64,000 nucleotides of DNA, taken from positions 9,115,753-9,179,752 of the forward strand of contig OZ022591.1 of NCBI GenBank assembly GCA_963669155.1, given 5' to 3'. This DNA is from Arbacia lixula (taxonomy: Eukaryota; Echinodermata; Echinoidea; Arbacioida; Arbaciidae). The first letter of the stretch is position 1. Each line of letters begins with the position of its first letter. Shown here in pieces: positions 16,541-62,744 of the stretch. Position numbers and translations under genes: made by a program. Under the pieces are notes generated by a model. The model had not been told where the DNA came from, made no database searches, and saw only the letters and a program-made list of their open reading frames with translations.

Positions 16541-16578
16541 AGCAAGAAAGAGAGAGATAGAAAGAAAGATTAAGTAAG

Positions 16579-16847
16579 AGAGAAGAAGAAGAAGAAGAAG
16601 AAGAAGAAGAAGAAGAAGAAGAAGAAGAAGAAGAAGAAGAAGAAGAAGAAGAAGAAGAAGAAGAAGAAGAAGAAGAAGAAGAAGAAGAAGAAGAAGAAGA
16701 AGAAGAAGAAGAAGAAGAAGAAGAAGAAGAAGAAGAAGAAGAAGAAGAAGAAGAAGAAGAAGAAGAAGAAGAAGAAGAAGAAAAGATGAAGAAGAAGAAG
16801 AAGAAGAAGAAGAAGAAGAAGAAGAAGAAGAAGAAGAAGAAGAAGAG
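16579..16847. repeat. (GAA)n microsatellite, about 270 bp
   Basis: About 88 GAA/AGA repeats, nearly uninterrupted; one break (AAAAGATG) near 16780..16788. It sits within a larger purine-rich region, 16535..17000. Long polypurine GAA tracts can form triplex DNA. Poly-Ser, poly-Leu and poly-Phe frames here are artefacts of the repeat. Confidence 0.97.
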
Positions 16848-33617: not shown

Positions 33618-33842
33618 CTCTTTGGATGCCAGATAATCAGCTACACTATGGGATTTGTGTGCATTACTGACAGCACAAAAGCAATTTAAGTACACAACTA
33701 CACAAGGGAAGTTAATGACCATTATCTTCCTCATGCCACACAAACTGAACTCCCGTCAGCATCTAAAGCTCTGAGTTAATTCTCCATTGGCACTTGGTCA
33801 GCTTCTGTATCAAGGCTTGGTCAGCTATTATAGATTAATGCA
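33618..33842. other. Short unique spacer with a duplicated motif
   Basis: CTTGGTCAGCT appears twice (about 33796 and 33815). A related GGCTTGGTCAGCTTATAGAT also lies just outside the right end of the large transposon. Confidence 0.6.
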
Positions 33843-33870
33843 TTAAAGGGAAAGTCTACCCTAAAGTTAA
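33843..33870. mobile_element. Truncated TTAA MITE abutting the large transposon
   Basis: TTAAAGGGAAAGTCTACCCT followed by AAAGTTAA is the first 28 bases of the MITE seen at 33154. The rest is absent; the next base is the first base of the transposon terminus. Confidence 0.75.
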
Positions 33871-33884
33871 CAGTCTGTCGGCAG
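33871..33884 (+). repeat. Left terminal inverted repeat of the large transposon
   Basis: CAGTCTGTCGGCAG, the exact reverse complement of 46522..46535. Directly upstream is TTAA, the interior of a truncated MITE. Confidence 0.8.
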
Positions 33885-34171
33885 TGTGTGCGAATCTCGC
33901 ACACAGAACGCAGGACGTATGCACGATCGGAGCTGTCATGAATACGTAATGAGCAGTGCATAGCCGTTTTGAAATCTTCTTCGTACTTTGTCTACTCAAC
34001 AAATCACTTTCATTTTTATATCATTTTAAAGAAGGAAAATAGATCTTTCATTTGGTGGAAATTTCAATCTGATATTTGAAAGATAATCGGGTAAAAATAT
34101 GGGATTTTTCGACATGTGAAAAACAAACCACGTCGATCCGGAAGAAGTACTCTAAATCAAATCTAAACAAT

Positions 34172-34280
34172 GTTGCATCGCATTTTGATTTGATCCAACA
34201 GAATGCTTGGTATTTCTTCTTTCAAACTGTCATCAAATAAAATCATTTCATTATGTATACCGCCCAGGATCCAGCAAAAT
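34172..34280 (+). repeat. Subterminal direct repeat, left copy
   Basis: Resembles 46108..46215 in the same orientation. It starts with TTGCATCG and ends with CCAGGATCCAGCAAAA, with intermittent matches between. It is direct, not inverted, so it is not part of the terminal inverted repeat. Confidence 0.5.
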
Positions 34281-37200
34281 ACGGCACTAAGTCATTGCAG
34301 CCTTCACTCGAAATCGTCTCTTACGGCCGCGGTCAAATGCAGGCTCGTGAGTGGTTGGAAATGATGTCATCGCATGACGTCATATGCATATAGTCTGCTA
34401 CGATTATCTGCAAGTCTACAGTAACTGATTGGACTGCGAGATCGCAGCGGAACATTTTTATTCTTATTCTCATAACCATGAATCTATTAATTCTGAAAAG
34501 ATTTGGATACTACTGTACGAGTTATCACTCCAGTAGCTTTGGGGACGTGTTGGTATTACCATAGATGAACAGGATTCACTAACGCAAAACACATTCACGA
34601 TCACGTCCGTCACGTACGTTCCCACATACTCACATTTGTGTAACATGTAACAGTCTGAGGGTCAGTGAAGAGAGACGAGTTTCAGTGCGATTTCCTGATT
34701 CAATCATACAAACTAGACTCCAACTGAAGCTTTGATTGTGAGCTTATCAAGCTGGCGCATGTAGACATGTGTTGTTAGTCCCCTATACCTACATACTTTC
34801 TTCTTTGCTTTGGAGTATTTAAATATTCTTTCATTTATCGTGATTTTGTAAAAAAAACAAACAGATTAGCTACTTGGTTCTGGAAAATGTGATAAATTTG
34901 GGCTACAGTCCCCCTCCCCCTTCTTTTTTTTTCTTATATACAGGGAAATCAGTTTTTGCTTCGAATTTCAACTCTTTAAGTCTAATTAAAATGCTTCCAT
35001 CATTTTTACTGGAAGCACTCGTTATTCTGAAGGTTTGTTATTCCGAAAGTTACGCAACAAATGCTTGGATAAATGAACCCTTTTTCGTTTTCGGACTAAC
35101 GAGCATCGAAGTACATGTATAGGCAATTTACGTGTTTTGGAATTATGAACCATTGGAGTAATGAACCTCGGAATAACGAACCTTCGGAATATCGAACTGT
35201 AACCATTTTAAAGGGGCGTAGACGGCAGGGAAAATGGGGGTGGGGGGAGATAAATCACCTAGCTCATGTACATCAGCCCCCCCCCCCCCCCCCCCAAAGA
35301 GTTCAGCAAAATAATACTGAATAATGTATTTTAGTCAGTATTATTACCATCACTAATCATTATTAGCATCATTATCGACATCAGCATCATCATGCTTTCA
35401 CCCCTCTGGACAGCACACGTACACCACCGTCTCACTCCGATCCATGATGAACAAAAAATGACAAGTAAATTTGTCAGAAAATATAAATTTGCAAATTATA
35501 CGGTATCCACACACATACAGTCATCACCAAATGATGTTTTTCCATCAAACATTCATTGAGGCAAAAAGTGTTAAATGTCTTAAGATTGTATGCAAATGGT
35601 AGTTTTAATGGTGGATATAGCCACTGAACATAACATACACAAAGAATAATTTAGATACACATGTATTATAAATAAAAACTCTTCTATTCTAAATACTGAA
35701 GAATGGAATACATACAAAACTATGCTACAAAATAAACTTTGAGGTATATGTACTGTAATAAAACTCATGAATATCCTGAACAATATAAGGCAAGGTAATG
35801 TTAAAAAGGCACATCTGCATGGAGTACTGACCGTTCACACACTTCGAGAGTTCAGCTCTTTGGCAACTTTGCAAGATAAAAATAACAGCATACAATATAC
35901 CGGTATGTTCCTTGTGATTTCCTGGTAAAGTGCATCTTTCTCTTCAGCCAAAGTATCAAGAATGAGAATGATGGTGTTGTTTTTCACACTTGGAACCATG
36001 GAACAAGCGTATTTAAAGTTTAATTGTGCTATATACACGTACATGTGAATTAAAAAAATGTACCCACCAAAAATGAGTTTACGTACATATACATTGAATA
36101 CAAACATAACACATGAATAAAATGGAATGCCTACAGTGTATTTCAATTTAAGAAAAAAAAAACCCTGTCGTAAGACGTTGTGCGAAGTCTGAATGTCAAC
36201 ATAGCAAGTTGAAATGAATATTACACAAAATACATGAATTCAAATATGAGGAAATATGTGGGCAGCGTGCACCTGTCTTCAAATCAAGTGGATCATGCTA
36301 TGCCACAGACCAAGTACTAATAAAAATTTGTATATACACGTTTACCCTGGTTGTGAACATAAATATCAAAATACTGCCTGTATAAGTACAAGTTCATCTG
36401 AATCCTGAATACATGTACTAAAAAGTGATCAAAGCATTACATACATGTAGAAAAAAAGAAACTTTTCTATATAATGAAGAGTGAACTACCATACATACCA
36501 TGCTACACAATCATCAAACTTTTGAGGTAGTGTAACAAAACATATTCATGAATATCATGAACAATATAAGGCAAGGTAATGTTAGAAAGGCACATCTGAA
36601 AGGAGTACTGACTTTTCACACACTTTGAGAATCAGCTCTGTGGCAACTTCACAAGGTATAACTAATGAAACAGAAGTAATATCACCATATTTGCCAATTT
36701 CCTGGTAACATGCATGTTCACACAGACAAGAGATATACTAATATTGAGAAGGACTGACTTAGTTTACAAACTAGGATAAACCATCAAATTAAAAACCAGA
36801 ACATCCAAATTGATGAATGTACCTACAAAAAATGAGTAAAATGCACATGCACATGTAAATGCACATGAAGAGGCTATAATACCAAGACCCAAGATCAACC
36901 TACCAAGTTCAAATCGATATCACACAAAATATATTCAAATGTCAACTTTCTCCATTATAATATTGATATGCAGAGTTCAGATGAAGGGCACTCAAGGTGT
37001 AACCATGTAAGAAAACTTCCTTATGGTAATTCATGTTAAACATAGTTTAAAGATACATGTATCAGTATAATGTTGGAATCTTCTCTACTACATGTACTAC
37101 AGAACTGAGCAGCACTCAGATATACCACTTACAGATTTACAGATGACTTGAAATAAAATGAGGAAAGAAAAAAAGGCAAATATTAATCAGCTTCCCTCTG

Positions 37201-37306
37201 TTTTCATAAAGAAATCTTGAATGCAAAGAAATATCAGTATATCGCAAATATTACACAAAAAATCATGGAGCATAAACATATGTACAAAAGGCAATAGAAG
37301 CAACTA
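34281..37306. other. 3' non-coding region of the transposon
   Basis: No coding segment is recognised. Contents: a poly-C run at 35276..35295, and a diverged tandem duplication with an offset of about 785 bp (about 35640..36250 and 36420..36950) whose copies share the stretches GAACAATATAAGGCAAGGTAAT and GGCACATCTG, then CAGCTCT. It probably holds the 3' UTR of the minus-strand gene; no clear poly(A) signal was picked out. Confidence 0.6.
35640..36950. repeat. Diverged tandem duplication (period about 785 bp) inside the transposon
   Basis: Copy A (about 35640..36250) and copy B (about 36420..36950) run in the same orientation and share several 15-25-base blocks in the same order. Endpoints are approximate. 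Confidence 0.7.
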
Positions 37307-40300
37307 TTAATCAATCTCCATATCAAATTCATCTGTCTGTATTCTTGAGCAATCTTCAGTATGTTTCTCAGGATAGTCCTCACCCTCTATTTGAAAGTCA
37401 TTTTCTTCACTTTCACTGTTTTCAGTCTCTTCACTTTCACTGTACTCAGATTCTTCACTTTCACTGTATTCATTATCTGACAAGTCTGAGTCTGTTGAGG
37501 AACTAAGTGAAATATTTGCATTTGGTGTATTTTCACAATTTTTGCACCTACATCCAGGTACACAAGTATTGTTTCCTTTTTTGCACTTGCACTGACGGGT
37601 GAGGCATTTATTTTTTTTACAAGAACATCCACGAGTTAAATACAATATGTTATTTTTTACCTTTTGAATATTCTCATCAGTATCCCAGATAACATCAACC
37701 TGGATTTCTCCAGACTGATGGGAAACATTGTAACCATACAATGAGATGTCGGGATACATAAATATTGGTGTTTTAACCTCACCCCAGACAGTGCTCACCC
37801 AACATGATCTCTTCCAGTGGAAGCGCAAGGCACTGTTGGATGGCATCAATTCATCCTCGTAAATACCTTTCCAAGAGGCTTTTCTCACAAGATCAAGCGC
37901 CATGTGATGATGTTCTACTGGAGATTCCGCACTGACACTGTTAAAGAGTTCTACGGGATTATCAAATTTATTCAAACAAGCACGATTTGCATTAAAATAT
38001 AAACACAGGATCAAACGGTAAAATGAAAGTAAGCCAGACTCAAAATAAGTTGGAATACTCGTCTCATTTAAATGACCAGGTGAAGAACCACTGAGATCTC
38101 CTGTTATAAAATGAGCATACTGAAAAAAAACTTTGAAAAAAATGGTCTTTCCAAAATGAGCAAAGAAAGATACAAAGTCACAACCACTACAAATATATAG
38201 CACTTGAATACATTTTGTTACATCTATGCCCTTTGTAATGAGTTGTGCAAGATCTGAATCTTTTTCAAGGGCAGACTGTAATTTGTTCAGCTGCAAGTAT
38301 TTATTGTTTCCTACTTTAGCACAATACTGCAAGGTAACTTCTTTGGTTCCAAAATCTAGAGGAAGTCCAATCATGCCTATATCTCTGTCAACTGAATATA
38401 TTAAAATATTTATGCATGGGGAGTCAAAAACATGTAACCAAATTTGAGTATCAGTTTCTTCATGATTGTGGTGAATTATATGTTTATCTATACCTTTTTT
38501 TGTGACAACTGCTCCACTATATTCTGAATTTGTTCCTAAACCGACACTGAAACCACCAGATGTAATAAACAATTGAGAGTTATTTTGAAGGTGCGATTGG
38601 GCATTTGATGCAAAATGACGTGACAAAAATCTAATCAGACAGTGCTTGTTTGTTCTTATCTTTAAAAAATTACCCCAATTTTTTGGTAGTGGAGTGTCAT
38701 CATCAATATTTTCAAAAAAATCTTCATCCTGATCAGTTCCATCCCTACGTTTTCTTTCAATTCCCTTAGGAGAAACCCCCTGTGTCCCTGCTTGATCAAA
38801 TAAAATTCTAACTTCTCTGAAGCCCTTGAGAAAATATGGTGCAATCCATCTGGAAACAAGCAAGTTTGCATACTCACTAAATACTTTCTGATGTTTTAAT
38901 GGGGACATGTAGATAATGTTCATGCCTTCTATAATCATGCATGTGTTGGAAGCAAGGGATGAATAGGTATCAGTCAAAAACTGAAAATTACTTGTATATC
39001 TCTTCTGAAAAAAATCATAAATAACTGCCTTTGACCCTTTCCTTGGAAGCCCATCTGGAGCACAGATCGCCCTAGGAACAGGCACAAACTGTAATAAACT
39101 TGAAATGGGTTGCTTCTGCTCCTCGGACAAAGCTATTGTTCTCTTATAGCAAAGAGTAATCAAACGCTTTTCCTTCTCCAGATCATTAACTCGACGTTTG
39201 CGTACTTTTTCCTTCCCAAAAGTTCTCAAATTAAATCTTCTACTTACTGGTTTATTAACTGAAGTTTCATGAAGAATTTGAAGTTTGAAATAGGCCTCAT
39301 ACGATTCATTACCAATTTGTCTAAAATTAAGGAGACTTTTTTCCTGCTGCGGATCAGCAATTGCACCAGAAAAAATATGAATGAGGTTAATAGGTTGATC
39401 AACCGAAAACATATTTGTATTGCTAACTTTATCAAAATACAATTTAACATTGGCAAATTCTGACTTTATCACTGATGCTTGCATATCACGATAAATGATG
39501 TTTTTTCTTTGGCTTCCTAGCTGAGATTCTAAATTACTCACAAGCTCTCCTCTATACTGAATTGTGGCAGCAACTTTATCCATTGTGTGTGGTTGAGGTA
39601 GAGATCGTGAAAGTGACATTTTACAGTCTCTATTTATTTTCATTTCATGTGCCTCATCGAGGGCAACAGATGAGAAAGGAGTTCCACTTAAACTGTTCAC
39701 AAATGCACCATCTTGGAAATCTCTTATTATATAATCAGGTAAACCATTTAACATATTGAGATGTAATGGAATCAGTTGTGAGTAATTGTATCTATCAAAA
39801 GCATGGAAAAGGGGAACCATGTCTTTCAGGGAAGCCAATCTGAGGTCCCAGTTGCCAGAGCGGATAGCTATCCATAAAGAAATATAACAAGAGCAGTCTT
39901 TTTTCAGAAATTGGTTCCAAAATTTGAAAGTGGCATGTTTCTGGGACATCATTTCACAAAACTCTTGAAATTCGTTTCTTATTTCAGACATACATGTACT
40001 TGAAGACTTCAAATGAGTCACTGCTGTTTTATACTCAAATATTCCTGAAATTTCTCCATGTTCATATGTCAGACAAGAGACAACTGATTTTACTTGTTCA
40101 AGAAAACTGTCATTACTGGTAACCGTTTCTTTCCCTTTCCTGTAATCCAAAAAACTTTGGAACTGGAACATGTATATAGCCTCATACACCTGAAACAAGA
40201 ACCTGTGTGTTCTTTTGAAATTTGAACATGCTGATAAACTATTCAAAGTTATATGCTTATGACTTAATTTCGCAATTTCCTTTAATCCAGAATCCCAGTA

Positions 40301-42627
40301 TATCTTCATTAAAACTTCTTGAAAGTTTTTTAATACATGCCAGTCACCTAAATAAGGTAGAACCCAATCAAGGGACTGCCCATAATCTTTTTTGATATTC
40401 ATTAAAAGTTTTACAGTGGCACCATCTCCAGCAATAACTAAGTGGTTAACTTCATTTTTTACTTGAAATGAGTCATACAAAATACCTAAGGAGCGTTTCA
40501 GTGTAGCTGAACAATCTGCCTTTTCATCTAATATATATAAATACGAACATTTTGACTTCACAACATCTGTGTGGATTTGTTCCATCGCAAGTTTAATCTT
40601 AATCCCTGGCAAACAAATATTTGAGTGATCATTGAGAAACATATACCTTTCACATATATAACTAAACAAACTTACATTAAGGTTTTCAGTGCAATCTTGC
40701 TCTTGTTTAGTTATTAAAAATTGTTCTTCTTTCACCTGATTTCTAAAAAATGTCTTATATTTGGGAGGTTCAAAATATGACTTAGATGGCACTTCTTGGG
40801 AGTCTATGCTATACAATGGTATTCTTTTCCGAACACTTGGTCTTTTTTCCAGGACCACATTGTCGGAAGCAAAGCTAGGAAGCTTAGCTGGAAGATCAGA
40901 TTCGGCGGTTGACGGCATGCATGATTCCTCAACAACCTCTTTAATCTTTGGTTTTGGTTGCTGCGCCATTATTGAAGTTCCATGCCAGCTTCTTGGCTTT
41001 TCTGCAGCAACTGCTGCATACCGGGCCATAACATCTATGTTATCTATAGATACAATTGTAAATGAAGAGGGCGAAAGGTCAACAAGTGGGCCATTCTTTT
41101 CACGAAAATCCTTCAAGCCCTGCAAAAATCGTTCTAAGGTTGTTTCTGAACAACACATGCCAAGTTTATTCATGATATTGATCAACTTGGATGAATGTGA
41201 GAGATCTTTTATGCAATTGGCAGTGATAACATGGAATGGATAAGAATTACTATCATTTAGAATATACTGAAGCAAAAAAACAATAGCAATTCGCTTGTTA
41301 CGCTTCATATAACCTTGAGAAAAATTGTCTGGAAAGCACAGGAAATTGTTGTGAAAAGATGCAAGGGAATTTTGTAAATGCTCTAATTCTTCCCTGTTTC
41401 CAGTTAAAAGACATACCATATTCCAAACCATGGGATGCATATGTGACTTCATATCTGCAAAATCAAACTTTAAAACAGAAGAGGGATCACGAGAAAATAT
41501 GTCTGCCGTTTCTTTCCCCTTTGATCGCAGTAAATGATTAATGTTTAAAAGAAATTCATCCCATCTGAAATCTTTGCATTCACTACTGATATTCAAGGGA
41601 GATGTATCATACGACATATCATTTTCATCATCTTCATTTCTGATTTGAATATTCCTATGCATAAACTTTGATTCATGCCATGCTTCAATAATTTCTTTTT
41701 TTGTTAAATTTGAGACATAAACAAAATCTCCTTTTCTTGATGTTGACTTACTGATAGAGAGCACATCTCCAAAGAAATCCATTATTTTACATTTTAACCA
41801 TGCTTTTGACCGTTTTGCTTGTTGATATTGTAATTCATTTTGGCAAACATTATGCAATATATTGAGATAAACACCATATGCATGTGGTATTAAAAATCCA
41901 AATTCCTTTCTACACAAATTAAGCAACTCCTGTAATGATAAATGTAAGGCTTTGACATCAGCTGTCCGCCAGTCAACAACCTCTCCAAGATTTTCAATTT
42001 CCTTTTTAATTTTACTATCTAATTCATCTAATGTAATTTGCTCCCTTTTCTTCCTCATTGAGTAACGATGACAGATAGTACATAAATAACCTTCCTCAGT
42101 GACAACTTCAGAAGATATTTCATGAAGCCTATCAATTGCATACTTGGTTAAATGCTTCAATGAATATTTTTTTTCACTTCCTCTGATAAGTGATTTACAT
42201 ATGCTGCAAAATGACATTCTTTTATAATTTGATACAGCTGCTCTGTGTTTTCCACATAGCCAAATAAATTCTGGCACAGAATCACAATGTAAAGAAAATG
42301 TTTCATTAAAATCAGCAAGATCTATTGAACTTCTTTTTAATCCACTATCAGAACATAACATGTAATTTGATAGAAAGCAAGGAGATACAACTCGCATTTT
42401 CTTCTTTTCAGGAGTGTATGAAGAATCTTTAACTTTTTTTGAATAGTTGACTCTGCAGGCATTACATATGCAATCTGTATCATTTATATTGGGATATTTC
42501 CTTTTAATTGCTTGTTTTAGTGATTCTGTCTGGATTGAAGATAAGTGTGTAAATCTTACATTTGTCATGGCCTGTTGACATATAACACATGGCCCACATA
42601 CAACTTTACCACATGGTTTCACCCCAA
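37307..42627 (-). CDS. Transposase exon: Cys-rich N terminus, DUF6589-like core, FEN1/XPG-like nuclease, CXC domain
   Basis: The frame is open from 42673 to the stop at 37307. Residues below count from 42655 (a TTG, not a true start). N terminus: cysteine clusters at 15-26, 62-67, 134-153 and 192-195, consistent with zinc binding. Core: SIDNID at 536-541, GDGAT at 743-747, and DWVLPYLGDWH at 763-773 match the pattern I associate with DUF6589 proteins, probably an RNase H-like transposase. Nuclease: LFDQAG at 1285-1290, EETDTQ at 1399-1404, SVDRDIGMIG at 1421-1430 and SGCDF at 1490-1494 follow the order of acidic motifs in FEN1/XPG enzymes. C terminus: nine cysteines at 1677-1707 in tesmin/TSO1 CXC spacing, then a Ser/Glu-rich acidic tail (1718-1765). 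The frame has no stop or frameshift, so it may be functional. First in-frame ATG is at codon 30, after the first cysteine cluster, which argues for an upstream exon. Confidence 0.8.
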
Positions 42628-45600
42628 CTCTTGAAATCCATTTATTTGTGAGCAAGTAATATATTGGAATTGGTCAGGTGGCTTAGGTGGTATATTGAGG
42701 CAAGATGGCTGCATGGAAGGTGGGCATGCGGGGGACTCACTGAGATGGCAAGATGAAGGTGGCGCCACGGAAGAAGGTGGATGTGACTCGCACGCGGGGG
42801 ACTCACTGAGCTGGCAAGATGAAGGTGGCGCCATGGAAGAAGATGGATGTGACTGGCACGCGGGGGACTCACTGAGCTGGCAAGATGAAGGTGGCGCCAT
42901 GGAAGAAGGTGGATGTGACTCGCACGCGGGGGACTCACTGAGATGGCAAGATGAAGGTGGCGCCATGGAAGAAGGTGGATGTGACTGGCACGCGGGGGAC
43001 TCACTGAGATGGCAAGATGAAGGTGGCGCCATGGAAGAAGGTGGATGTGACTGGCACGCGGGGGACTCACTGAGCTGGCAAGATGAAGGTGGCGCCACGG
43101 AAGAAGATGGATGTGACTCGCACGCAGGGGACTCACTGAGATGGCAAGATGAAGGTGGCGCCATGGAAGAAGGTGGATGTGACTGGCACGCGGGGGACTC
43201 ACTGAGATGGCAAGATGAAGGTGGCGCCATGGAAGAAGGTGGATGTGACTGGCACGCGGGGGACTCACTGAGATGGCAAGATGAAGGTGGCGCCACGGAA
43301 GAAGGTGGATGTGACTCGCACGCAGGGGACTCACTGAGATGGCAAGATGAAGGTGGCGCCATGGAAGAAGATGGATGTGACTGGCACGCGGGGGACTCAC
43401 TGAGCTGGCAAGATGAAGGTGGCGCCACGGAAGAAGGTGGATGTGACTGGCACGCGGGGGACTCACTGAGCTGGCAAGATGAAGGTGGCGCCATGGAAGA
43501 AGCTGGTGGCTCTGTTGGGAGTCCTGTCAGTGCCATGGGTAGTTGTGGACATCTCTGAGTATGAAATAAAATGAGATTTTCATTTGAAATTGAATGTGAC
43601 CAAAATTGAAGAACTAATCATTGACTTAAACGTAATCTGGTGAAGCATAGAGCAGTTTAAGTTCATGGTTCATGAGCACGGTGAAATACAAGTAAAAGAA
43701 TTTGACTTTTTAAGCACTATTGTGAATACATGTAATTTTCTTGAATAATCTCAATTTGGAAGAGAGGGCCCATAAAAGCTTCTCTTTTGCTTGCCTAAAA
43801 ATTAACATTGTACCAATACAATGCCATTTAGATGAATATGCCATCTGGGAACCTTTAGCAAAATATAGGAGCTAGACAGTTTAAGTGGACTTATAGTGAC
43901 CATTGCATGCTGATTTGCATAAATTCTTACCATACAACATACATTAAATGGTTATTGTTTTTCTTAAACACATTTCAAATTTTAGGTAATTATTGAGCCA
44001 AGATTTCATAAACATGCCCTTCATCAATAGCCAGAGGGCATGGGATTTCTTTTCCTTATCAGCAGGAATGTTTGCAAATGAGATCCACTGCCTTTAAGTC
44101 AGTAAATCAGAGTATTTTAGCATTATGTAATATTGCAAGTTGCTTTGCAATGCAGCTAAGAATATCAAAAAAGGCTCGAACAAGTGGACGGTGTCCAGGA
44201 AATATGAAAAAGGTGGAAATATGCCAACCCTGAATAAAAGAGTACCCATATAGCATATACACTGCATTTTATCAGTGTACTAAAAATATTTAGAGAGCAC
44301 GTACCTTCTTGCATTTCTTTCGGCGCTCCTTCCTCTCCTTCTGCCTTCTCCTTCTCTTGCGTTGGCCAAGCTTCTTGTGCAGGACATACTGGGTTGGTGG
44401 GGCAGGTATGGGGACAGTCCGGGTACATGTAGATATTTGTGATGGGTGCAGGTGGATGTACGGGATGGTTGAAGGCAACGACTCTGGGATATGCTGGTGA
44501 GGTGGGAGCTGCGGAGGTGGAGGGGGGCGGTATGGGTTTGTCGGACGCTTGAAGCCATCACTGCCTGTTTCTTGAGCTTTAGGTTGGCATTTTCCCTTCC
44601 TTTTAGTTCTTGGCCTTTGCGAGTTCAGAGTCCTACCATATTTTTCCCTCTTCTTGTAGAGGACCAGATCCAGGTCAGTCTCGGTCCATGGATTGAGTTT
44701 TTCCTTCTTTTTAGTAGGAGGGCAGAGACGCTTCAGTTCAGGGGGAATCCGAATGTTGGATGATTTAGGGCGAGGGTTGTTTACTTTATTCACAAAAATT
44801 TCGATATTTTGAGCAAAAAAAGATTTCCCTATAGCATTCAAATGCAGGCCATCAATTGCATATAAGTCATCGGACGCATTGAATTCTGTACTATCTTCAA
44901 AAACGCGAAAATTATACTTCACAGAAAGTTCTCGGATTTGTCGATTGTAATATAAACTCTGCTCATGTAACAGTTCACTGTCCCAACGAGGCAGAATGAG
45001 AGAAACAAAAATATCAGAAAACAGAAATTTCTCCTTCACTGTCACAATTAAATCAATGAAATGTTTTCTATCTTTCTCCCAAATTCCACCAAGGTTATTT
45101 GTTCCAATGTGGACAATTATTGCATCAGTATCCGAACCAAAATCCGATCGTAAAATATATCTCCTCAATTGCTCAAAAGTCGCTCCAGGGACACAATGCA
45201 CAGAACTTGGAAAAGACGATGTAAAATGTTCACCGATGTTACGTAATATGGAGTCCCCCACTAAAACAACTTGCTGCAGTGGGCGGGAAAACCTGAAATG
45301 AAACGGACAAAATGTATCAAATGTAGTTAATCCAAAAGATAAGGATAAAATGAATGTACACAGATTTTGAATACTCATAATTATGCAATCTAAAATTCAT
45401 TCTCACAAGGAGAAATTCTACAAAGATCTTATATAATCAAAGTCTAGGGACAGTGATTTTCCATTTTACCAGCGACAAACAGAAAGTCTGTTTTGTTCTT
45501 TTCATGTAAAAATTAATGGAAATCACCTTTGCAAAATGGAAAATGCATACATTTTCTTCAACAAAACAGAATTTCCGTTTTTATGCAAGGTGAAATGGGA

Positions 45601-46363
45601 TTGCAAGTTTTCAGAAATGAAGAAGACGATTTTGAAATGAAAAATCACTGTCTCTATAATCATGAACTGGTAATGGTATTTTTAGTGGTTATAATATACT
45701 CTTGGAAGAATGAACACCTCATAAGTAATGTGCTGTTTATAACCATTGGCAGTATTTGTTGTTAGCTAGGTCTGTGCAAATGCAACTGCTATCTTAGTTG
45801 CACATTATTTAACATCACCCTCGGCCTCAGTCAGGCCCAGTCACCTCAACAAGTCAACTATAAATACGATCGGCTTTACAACCGCGATACATGTACCCTA
45901 CATTCACAGACTTTATAACGTTATACGCTTACATCATTTTTGAACATATGGGACTACACAGTGTTCTTTTCACGCGAGACGACTCGCCGAGGACACGGCT
46001 AGTTTCGCGCCATTGGGCCCGAAAACCTTGTGTCCACTGATCACAACTTCCGGTTTAAGTCTATTTTTAGTCCAACTTCAAAACAAAATTTAATCAAGTT
46101 ATACATTTTGCATCGTTTCAGTTTTGACATATGGTGTTGGCACATTCTTTGTCTACAGTAATCAACGAAAATCAGCGTGTTAGCGATTTTATACCGGCCA
46201 GGATCCAGCAAAACAGGCGGTTATGTTCGAAATCAACACCAAATATGACTAAAATGTATCGTAAATTGTATGATGAATATCATAATCGTAAAAACATCAA
46301 GTATGGTTAAATTATATATCAAATTAAAGAGGAAGAAACGGAGATTCACACTCACCCCACCAT
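37307..46363 (-). CDS. Four-exon transposon gene: SGNH hydrolase + 22-aa repeats + transposase/XPG-like/CXC protein
   Basis: Proposed spliced model: exon 1 46363..46356, exon 2 45292..44305, exon 3 43554..42741, exon 4 42627..37307. Every junction uses GT-AG. Phases match at each join (2, 0, 1), and the summed coding length of 7131 nt is divisible by three, giving 2376 residues. Exon 1 is ATGGTGGG before GTGAGT. Exon 2 is entered after a pyrimidine-rich TTTCAG and left at AAGAAG before GTACGTG. Exon 3 is entered after CATACTCAG. The last intron, 42740..42628, is the least certain: its donor GTGAGT is strong, but its acceptor (AAGAG) is weak and sits 2 nt after a CAAG that would be out of frame. 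Alternative: exons 1-3 and exon 4 are separate transcripts, with exon 3 then reading to a stop at 42619. Function by inference: a transposition protein acting on the CAGTCTG termini. Confidence 0.55.
42724..43494. repeat. 66-bp minisatellite, about 11.7 copies
   Basis: Near-identical 66-bp units, GC-rich against an AT-rich background, lie inside the transposon and form most of exon 3. Sites such as CACGG/CATGG and GAGCTGG/GAGATGG alternate between units, showing recent homogenisation or slippage. Every unit contains CTCAGTGAGTCCCC on the minus strand, i.e. a near-perfect 5' splice donor core. Confidence 0.95.
42741..43554 (-). CDS. Repeat-linker exon: twelve 22-residue Ser/Pro/Cys repeats
   Basis: The exon opens with RCPQLPMALTG in phase 0 after exon 2, then reads about 12 copies (last one partial) of a 22-residue unit resembling MAPPSSCQLSESPAC plus QSHPPSS. 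Units differ only at position 1 (M/V), 8 (Q/H), 16 (Q/E) and 20 (P/S). Each has two cysteines and is predicted to be disordered. No known domain is recognised. It separates the SGNH domain from the transposase half, so a flexible linker is the simplest reading. Because the 66-bp period is divisible by three, all frames stay open, including the plus strand; openness alone is therefore weak evidence for coding. The matching 5' splice phase and the ATG at 43536 are the better evidence. Confidence 0.5.
44305..45292 (-). CDS. SGNH/GDSL-family hydrolase domain exon of the transposon
   Basis: Role: SGNH hydrolases are esterase/lipase/acetylhydrolase folds; the substrate here is unknown. Seen, numbering from the predicted MVG start: block I VLVGDSILRN with nucleophile S17; block II-like PGATFEQL near residue 39; block III HIGTNNLGG at about 65-72 (G66, N69); block V DGLHLN at 150-155 with the D150/H153 pair. 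All four signature blocks are present in order and correctly spaced for a compact domain of about 180 residues. After about residue 185 the protein becomes basic and proline-rich (runs of P, then alternating K and R up to the splice donor), which could be a nucleic-acid-binding or nuclear-targeting tail. Known: SGNH esterases occur in ORF1 of some CR1-like retrotransposons, but this copy sits between DNA-transposon termini. The exon boundaries are strong consensus splice sites. An unspliced reading would start at 45378 and stop at 44290. Confidence 0.8.
45430..45656. repeat. Foldback element in the first intron
   Basis: GGGACAGTGATTTTCCATTTT at the left is matched by AAATGAAAAATCACTGTCTC in inverted orientation at the right. 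Internal inverted segments include AAACAGAAAGTCTGTTTTG. It is probably a small MITE nested in the intron. Confidence 0.5.
46108..46215 (+). repeat. Subterminal direct repeat, right copy
   Basis: Partner of 34172..34280. The shared 16-base core CCAGGATCCAGCAAAA lies at 46198..46213. It falls within the first intron of the proposed gene. Confidence 0.5.
46356..46363 (-). CDS. Predicted first coding exon (ATG GTG GG), strong splice donor
   Basis: The ATG at 46363 has G at -3 and G at +4, a good initiation context. Eight coding bases precede a consensus donor (G before GTGAGT). Phase 2 joins exactly to exon 2, so the protein starts MVGFSRPLQQ before the SGNH block I. A second ATG 8 bases upstream (46371) is in another frame. 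After splicing it would read only about fifteen codons into exon 2 before a stop, so it would act as a short upstream ORF overlapping the main start. The transcription start is not identifiable from sequence alone; about 170 bases of terminal sequence lie between here and the right inverted terminus. Confidence 0.5.
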
Positions 46364-46521
46364 GACGACATGTTGATTGACTGTGCAAGCATATATGTGC
46401 ATGTGTACAGGGCTTGCTAGCGCCCGCGCAAAAGCCTGAAAACATCGCCGTTTGCACAACCGTGTGCGGACGCACGAAATCCTGCGTTGGGTACCTCATT
46501 ATACCCTCATTTGCATACGCT

Positions 46522-46535
46522 CTGCCGACAGACTG
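46522..46535 (-). repeat. Right terminal inverted repeat of the large transposon
   Basis: CTGCCGACAGACTG on the plus strand, pairing with the left terminus. Both ends also share AACGCAGGA about 40 bases inside. The outer flank is ATTCAGGCTTGG. Confidence 0.8.
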
Positions 46536-46575
46536 ATTCAGGCTTGGTCAGCTTATAGATGAATGTGTTAATGTT
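46536..46575. repeat. Flank repeat matching the left side of the transposon
   Basis: CAGGCTTGGTCAGCTTATAG then ATGAATGTGTTAAT resembles AAGGCTTGGTCAGCTATTAT then AGATTAATGCATTAA at about 33810..33846, in the same orientation. Confidence 0.6.
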
Positions 46576-62459: not shown

Positions 62460-62735
62460 TCCACCACCACCACAACCACCACCACCACCACCACCACCAC
62501 CACCACCACCACCACCACCACCACCACCACCACCACCACCACCACCACCACCACCACCACCACCACCACCACCACCACCACCACCACCACCACCACCACC
62601 ACCACCACCACCACCACCACCACCACCACCACCACCACCACCACCACCACCACCACCACCACCACCACCACCACCACCACCACCACCACCACCACCACCA
62701 CCACCACCACCACCACCACCACCACCACCACCCCC
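62460..62735. repeat. (CCA)n microsatellite, about 275 bp
   Basis: About 90 CCA units with one early CAACCA interruption, preceded by a poly-C run at 62447..62459. Poly-Pro, poly-His, poly-Gly and poly-Val frames here are artefacts. Confidence 0.97.
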
Positions 62736-62744
62736 ACCCCTTCC

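Follow-up and report, generated by a model that had tools for sequence, protein, structure and literature searches.

An AcademX-like DNA transposon of the sea urchin Arbacia lixula with a co-inherited SGNH hydrolase and a proposed -1 frameshift between hydrolase and transposase

The window analyzed here is a stretch of 64,000 nucleotides of Arbacia lixula DNA (assembly GCA_963669155.1, contig OZ022591.1, positions 9,115,753 to 9,179,752), to which all coordinates refer. It contains a 12.7-kb transposon on the minus strand, whose exons encode an SGNH hydrolase, a Pro-rich repeat tract, and a DUF6589 transposase (Table 1). The termini suggested in a preliminary description of the locus were located exactly, at 33871 (+) and 46535 (-). 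The chance expectation for the 14-bp termini was 0.15 matches at up to 2 mismatches, and the copies in families A/B, C, and E began with a similar terminal motif (CAGTC..GCA..). Target duplications of 4 bp (TACA and TGTC) were found in two family C copies, the only copies read at both ends; no target-site duplication was found at the window copy, and the 3' end of family A was not found within the flank examined.

Table 1. Features of the transposon in the window
Feature	Position	Strand	Remarks
Whole transposon, AcademX-like	33871..46535	-	12,665 bp; coding strand starts from high-coordinate end; exact 14-bp inverted termini
5' terminal inverted repeat	46522..46535	-	CAGTCTGTCGGCAG; aligned with other families
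Upstream ATG (uORF)	46369..46371	-	8 nt before start codon; present in 8/8 aligned sequences
Exon 1	46356..46363	-	8 nt, ATG GTG GG; donor GTGAGT
Exon 2: SGNH (GDSL) hydrolase domain and Lys/Arg-rich tail	44305..45292	-	donor GTACGT, phase 0
Exon 3, unspliced at 42741: Pro-rich repeat tract	42619..43554	-	ends TTG GGG TGA; ORF1 = 643 aa
66-bp tandem array	42723..43506	-	11.9 copies
Proposed -1 frameshift site, TTG GGG TGA (YTG GGG stop)	42619..42627	-	in 18/20 other copies and in the window
ORF2, -1 frame: Cys-rich zinc finger, DUF6589 core, nuclease, CXC	37307..42622	-	1771 aa; no ATG ahead of zinc finger
DUF6589 core, DDE-type RNase H-like fold	39326..41473	-	candidate triad D538, D744, E1001 or E1004 (1782-aa ORF numbering)
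XPG/FEN1/XRN-like nuclease domain	37736..39088	-	AlphaFold model pLDDT 87
CXC (tesmin/TSO1-like) domain	37526..37633	-	Pfam TCR E 3e-4, slightly under cut-off
3' terminal inverted repeat	33871..33884	+	exact match to 14-bp 5' terminus

The four minus-strand segments that the preliminary description had joined gave 7131 nt with a single terminal stop and GT-AG at the junctions, and the repeat tract that it had noted was found as the 66-bp array. Its first two junctions (46356/45292 and 44305/43554) were conserved, but the third (42741/42627) was not. Exon 1, with its ATG and phase-2 donor, lies about 172 nt in from the terminus and recurred at the same place in four families (F, C, A/B, and E), with a counterpart in 7/8 sequences scanned; junctions 1 and 2, with the splice sites of exon 2, recurred in five families, and the phase was unchanged throughout.

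The domains of the predicted product were analyzed by profile and fold searches. The DUF6589 profile matched above its own cut-off (E 2e-13). The AlphaFold model of the C-terminal part matched XRN1/XRN2, Rad2, FEN, and XPG (XRN1 E 6.7e-5, Rad2 1.6e-3, XPG 0.06), in agreement with the FEN1/XPG-like nuclease proposed before. Matches to the CXC and SGNH profiles were also obtained, but both fell narrowly under the Pfam cut-offs (TCR 21.4 bits vs 23.5; GDSL 30.0 vs 32.9). All four blocks of an SGNH (GDSL) hydrolase, with the catalytic S, G, N, and H, were present: the GTNN and DGLH columns were invariant in 8/8 sequences, a GDS or SDS block was found in all 7 sequences covering it, and Lipase_GDSL_2 was detected at E <= 0.01 in 8/8 sequences. 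The best PDB match of the SGNH domain was 4c1b, an 'ORF1-encoded protein', which we take to be ZfL2-1 ORF1p. No helicase was found among the Pfam hits of the element product up to E 1.

AcademX, whose nuclease is of the XPG type, was reportedly described by Kojima in 2020 as a lineage within the Academ DNA transposon superfamily. The portion of the AcademX description consulted gives 3-4 bp target-site duplications and a nuclease rather than a helicase (PMC10045372). The present element, which has a DDE-like core, fits AcademX in its nuclease, with an XRN/Rad2/FEN/XPG fold match, instead of a helicase, and in the duplications of 4 bp in the two family C copies. It differs in its SGNH ORF1, repeat linker, and overlapping -1 junction, of which that portion of the description makes no mention (PMC10045372).

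Next to the unconserved third junction, a different motif was shared by the families. The repeat exon was open up to YTG GGG T(GA/AG/AA), with the stop codon TGA, TAG, or TAA varying by family, and the transposase ran on from there in the -1 frame. In 7 sequences, the zero frame was open up to the site for 330 codons in family F, 351 in C, 312-391 in A/B, 229 in E, and 34 in D, which has an upstream intron, while the other two frames closed within 1-27 codons. A stop, be it TGA, TAG, or TAA, stands there in each family although synonymous sites were near saturation in 5/5 between-family pairs tested. A zero-frame stop followed directly after a Val codon in 103/432 cases, so that five families would give 8e-4, if independent. 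No in-frame ATG was found from the site to the GPCxxC zinc finger in 11/11 sequences checked, and the analysis suggests that the zinc finger is missing from database transposase models, P0002 and P0010 among them, that take the first ATG as their start. P0032, an L. pictus protein listed at NCBI, consists of SGNH and repeats and ends in ...LLG, as a frameshift at this site predicts.

We propose that the element is an AcademX-type transposon with a gag/pol-like layout, in which a -1 frameshift at the YTG GGG stop gives both ORF1 and a fusion; the probability of this reading is about 0.58. The comparison of families supports an ORF1 that consists of the tiny ATG exon, the SGNH hydrolase exon, and the Pro-rich repeat exon and closes at the conserved stop, from which the transposase goes on in the -1 frame with its zinc finger, DDE-like core, XPG-like nuclease, and CXC. 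Most ribosomes would terminate at this stop, yielding a 643-aa esterase-repeat protein. A minority, with Gly-tRNA on GGG and the stop in the A site, would slip back one base, GGG re-pairing with GGG, and produce a 2414-aa SGNH-repeat-transposase. The fused form might cut and paste the element, and free ORF1 might coat or escort the complex, its esterase perhaps targeting lipid membranes, a role also suggested for the ORF1 esterases of LINEs. The fusion of SGNH, repeats, and transposase claimed in the preliminary description is retained as a likely covalent product, as judged from sequence, and the SGNH part does belong to the transposon; the third splice is probably wrong as the route to it, and a -1 frameshift fits better.

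Classical -1 frameshifting involves an X XXY YYZ slippery heptamer, a stable structure a few nucleotides 3' of it, and overlapping ORFs in the -1 register that meet at a conserved motif. Such overlapping ORFs were found here. However, the heptamer was not found at the site, where the motif YTG GGG TRR allows full re-pairing for Gly-tRNA only, and the RNA 3' of the site showed no more stability than shuffled sequence (z -1.3 to +1.6 in 8 sequences, folding without pseudoknots). That an animal cut-and-paste transposon has evolved gag-pol-like expression by single Gly-tRNA -1 slippage on GGG, with an A-site stop and no RNA structure, is in our judgment an even bet.

A weak 5' splice site (GGG/GTRR) would look similar to the motif, and the overlap contains AG dinucleotides that could serve other routes. 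Two separate proteins might be made without any fusion, ORF1 ending at the YTG GGG stop and the transposase coming from an exon 1-spliced mRNA or from termination-reinitiation. An AG usable by phase-2 exons lies in the overlap of the window, C, and D (in C within a pyrimidine-rich context), and exon 1, seen in the window and in C, is of phase 2, so splicing straight to this AG could give a transposase mRNA without SGNH in these three. In addition, the stop overlaps a GTG in the window, L. pictus relatives of SGNH and transposase are listed as separate proteins, and no ready-made SGNH-transposase fusion was found among 878 candidates in the protein database. However, in A/B and E only a phase-0 AG is available, and the overlap of L024, a decayed copy of the window's own family, is devoid of AG, which leaves exon 1 without a usable acceptor in these; the overlap codon in A/B and E is GTA, a poor reinitiation start. 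This model, which we consider rather unlikely, does not by itself account for the GGGG run or for the retention of a stop exactly where the two frames meet.

The splice of the preliminary description, from GTGAGT in the last repeat (42741) to 42627, would give a 2376-aa in-frame fusion with an open joined frame, GT-AG ends, and fitting phases. Its donor, however, has the sequence CTCAGTGAGT, which occurs 12 times in identical form in the array, and the repeats of other families are unrelated to those of the window. The phase-1 acceptor (..CAAGAG/TTG) has no same-place counterpart in other families: the overlap of A/B, C, and E contains no phase-1 AG, that of L024 lacks any, and the phase-1 AG of family D sits elsewhere, directly after a stop. 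The good acceptor of family D is upstream of a -1-frame stop. The stretch that this splice removes is open in the repeat frame up to the stop at 42627-42619, as in other families, and the model, which appears improbable, offers no reason why every family should keep the repeat frame open as far as a stop at this motif. A caution for the frameshift reading is that a second frame has a long open run within the array of the window, so that openness there proves little on its own.

Skipping of the repeat exon, with SGNH exon 2 spliced to an acceptor near the site to give a repeat-free SGNH-transposase fusion, is very doubtful. In A/B and E the AG ending a -1-frame TAG stop just upstream of the site is of phase 0, the same as the SGNH exon donor, and the -1 frame opens directly after it; the context is fairly pyrimidine-rich in E (actcacccataccattaaatag) but purine-rich in A/B. 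No phase-0 AG lies at the overlap of the window, C, or D, and L024 has none of any phase.

The inheritance of the SGNH hydrolase was investigated in 20 other copies in the host assembly, those with the 5' side read. In 19/20 copies, from families A/B to F, the transposase was preceded on its own strand by SGNH sequence. Full-length elements lacking SGNH, which the preliminary description had named as a refutation, were not seen among the closer relatives. The sole copy without SGNH was L028, a 37% relative that starts with its own ATG; in L024 and L027 the SGNH sequence was present as fragments only. The SGNH ORF was intact in 16/18 site-holding copies and in the window, and its dN/dS was 0.17-0.26 in four pairs. 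The SGNH and transposase trees showed identical groupings, and therefore SGNH is, on these sequence comparisons, a standing, co-inherited gene of the transposon family and not a one-off capture. Fish Helitrons are known to carry captured SGNH genes as cargo (PMC4021074), but a chance passenger in the window copy is hardly credible against this wide distribution, the congruent trees, and the low dN/dS.

SGNH esterases have previously been described in retroelements and fish Helitrons; here one is a standing gene in a TIR transposon. This suggests a common need, met by a lipid esterase, among unrelated mobile elements. In the sections of the sources consulted, CR1/L2/RTEX non-LTR retrotransposons have an esterase ORF1, for example ZfL2-1 ORF1p, likewise encoded ahead of the enzyme responsible for mobility, but they copy RNA and keep separate ORFs, whereas the present element is a TIR transposon with a transposase (PMC3905857). 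Vesta LTR and Athena/Neptune elements have also recruited SGNH/GDSL ORFs, but they are retroelements, and in Vesta the GDSL ORF is ORF3 (PMC5408684). The texim genes of fish are SGNH genes moved by a DNA transposon, but as a multi-exon captured gene on a rolling-circle carrier; texim-like genes occur in sea urchins and are not Helitron-associated there (PMC4021074, in part). An AcademX-like carrier might explain these sea-urchin copies.

Among eukaryotic DNA transposons, a programmed frameshift was reportedly described by Doak in 2003 for a gene of Euplotes Tec2; there, in contrast to the frameshift proposed here, the element is from a ciliate and the gene encodes a tyrosine recombinase. Retroviruses make gag-pol by ribosome slippage, and retroviruses and bacterial insertion sequences use the ratio of ORF1 to ORF1-ORF2. 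If the frameshift proposed here is true, this logic extends to an animal DNA transposon, the motif is a new and compact recoding signal, and the transposon has a means to set the ratio of accessory protein to transposase, possibly with lipid-linked trafficking. Family C contains near-identical copies with intact ORFs, which make the element testable in cells.

The two 14-bp termini of the AcademX-like transposon on the minus strand of the window were exact and faced each other, against 0.15 terminus matches expected by chance with ≤2 mismatches allowed. Between them, the minus strand carried an SGNH ORF, 11.9 tandem copies of a 66-bp unit and an ORF of 1782 aa. The four segments that the preliminary description had joined into one gene gave 7131 nt with no internal stop. 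Of the domains proposed for the product, DUF6589 was recovered (Pfam, E 2e-13), but CXC and GDSL gave only sub-threshold matches. The closest solved structure to the SGNH exon was 4c1b, an ORF1-encoded protein (E 2e-6). Comparison of the flanks showed no 4-bp target duplication around the window copy, and the element may have landed in a host duplication or undergone rearrangement with one.

Positions of features in the window
Feature	Position	Strand	Basis
14-bp termini, CAGTCTGTCGGCAG	33871 and 46535		terminus search
Diverged AGGCTTGGTCAGCT..TATAGAT stretch common to both flanks	about 33812-33850 and 46536-46575		
Start ATG of exon 1 and second ATG 8 nt upstream	46371-46356	minus	
YTG GGG stop	42627-42619	minus	
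(AAG)n triplet array, long, near-perfect	16576-16846		
(CCA)n triplet array, long, near-perfect	62461-62738		

The SGNH exon had been described as part of the transposon gene, and other genome copies bear this out. The transposase exon gave 32 matching stretches in the 607-Mb host assembly, some of which are fragments of one decayed copy, and the 5' side was taken from 20 places, with a few weaker places left out. SGNH sequence lay upstream of the transposase on the same strand in 19 of the 20 (tblastn), in fragments only in copies L024 and L027; the sole place without it, L028, is a 37% relative beginning with its own ATG. The SGNH tree and the transposase tree, the latter built on the first ~270-300 residues, showed identical groupings: copy family F (that of the window) with the database protein pair X1 (P0030/P0001), A/B with E, and C with X4 (P0033/P0004), both pairs being matched by equal contig size. 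The SGNH and transposase data were correlated across seven lineages (Mantel test, r 0.71, p 0.01). The dN/dS of the SGNH exon was 0.20, 0.26, 0.17 and 0.18 in four pairs, which have members in common and small counts (5-12 synonymous differences); pair L009-L012 had 0 synonymous and 2 non-synonymous changes, and pair L013-L015 had none. The transposase 5' part gave 0.14-0.76 in the five pairs having synonymous change. Family C (L013-L019, L023, L026) consists of near-identical copies in which repeat number varies; its main array has a 69-bp period, so ORF1 (exon 1, SGNH and repeats) stays open despite this variation.

Exon 1 and the first two junctions of the earlier model are well supported by sequence comparison. 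The SGNH-exon acceptor, an AAG|GT donor of phase 0 and the YAG acceptor of the next exon were common to families A/B, C, D, E and F; family D has several small repeat exons, and the exon compared there was the last ORF1 exon. Exon 1, marked by a pair of ATGs with 8-nt spacing and by a GT donor lying about 172 nt in from the terminus, recurred in four families: 7 of 8 scanned sequences (F, C, A/B, E) had a first exon of phase 2, the unscored one being L024, whose donor GTTAGT fell outside the donor filter. The upstream ATG was kept in all 8, at the same place in A/B, C and E, and creates a short uORF, which in C and A/B stops within exon 1.

At the third junction, the repeat frame was open up to YTG GGG, with a stop directly after it, in all five families (TGA in F, C and D, TAG in A/B, TAA in E). 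The motif was present in the window and 18 of the 20 copies, and missing from L027, which is decayed, and L028, which has no SGNH. The transposase frame is -1 relative to the repeat frame, and the two overlap by 52 nt in the window, 16 in L024, 79 in C, 13 in A/B, 49 in D and 19 in E. From the site to the GPCxxC zinc finger, none of the 11 sequences checked had an in-frame ATG. The other two frames at the site closed within 1-27 codons (7 sequences tested), unlike the open repeat frame; deeper inside the window array, one other frame was open for 294 codons. GGG made up 16% of Gly codons, and zero-frame stops after Val codons numbered 103/432. The probability of stops in five families was 8e-4, and of stop plus GGG 8e-8; both values assume independent families, are optimistic given shared ancestry, and use counts that partly include the sites themselves.

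A frameshift at this one conserved motif would be the simplest common explanation across families, and the comparison of copies inclines us towards it. The Gly-tRNA on GGG would slip -1 and re-pair perfectly with GGG one base upstream, and a stop codon occupying the A site would leave time for the slip. The predicted products of the window copy are an ORF1 protein of 643 aa and a fusion of 2414 aa. Folding of 8 sequences found no RNA structure downstream, and the motif does not match a classical slippery heptamer. We put at about 0.5 the probability that this is an animal cut-and-paste transposon with gag-pol-like expression, making ORF1 and, by -1 frameshift, an ORF1-transposase fusion.

It is possible that splicing specific to each family places the transposase downstream of other exons with no frameshift. 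For the transposase to have this N terminus, an acceptor would have to fall in the overlap. The window has AGs of phases 2 and 1 there, D of phases 1 and 2, and C of phase 2 with pyrimidine-rich surroundings; exon 1 (phase 2) would suit all three. In A/B and E the overlap AG is of phase 0, being the end of the preceding TAG, and would suit the SGNH exon (phase 0). Splicing could carry exon 1 to the transposase in three families, which lowers our confidence both in the frameshift and in the gag-pol-like reading. No one scheme suits all families, the L024 overlap has no AG, and the clear acceptor of family D enters the repeat frame, upstream of a -1-frame stop. The splice first proposed here (42741/42627) is judged unlikely, since AG phases vary by family and L024 offers none.

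Protein databases gave 27 relatives of the transposase part, those with species labels coming from sea urchins (Strongylocentrotus, Lytechinus, Diadema), Branchiostoma and Mytilus, and 7 of the SGNH exon. Two SGNH and two transposase matches probably share the same contigs, judging from equal lengths (16855 and 12678). SGNH gave 0 matches among 878 candidates of fusion size; many entries are apparently single-frame ORF calls, in which a spliced or frameshifted fusion could not show. The L. pictus protein P0032 consisted of SGNH and repeats and ended in ...LLG, the ORF1 end predicted by the frameshift model. By eye, a ubiquitin-like segment with a terminal GG seems to precede the zinc finger at the N termini of P0019 (Branchiostoma), P0021 and P0026 (Mytilus); Pfam made no such call in P0019 or P0021. 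P0013 contained an OTU-like cysteine protease inserted within the transposase (residues 495-637; Pfam OTU, 8e-5); P0015-P0018 resembled it by eye, and P0015 had no Pfam call for OTU at E ≤ 0.1.

Ranked titles and abstract openings revealed neither a TIR transposon with an SGNH gene nor a frameshifted animal transposase, and a literature search for DUF6589 gave no paper. Systems already known to be related in role comprise LINE ORF1 esterases (PMC3905857), the GDSL ORFs of bdelloid retroelements (PMC5408684) and texim, borne by Helitrons (PMC4021074).
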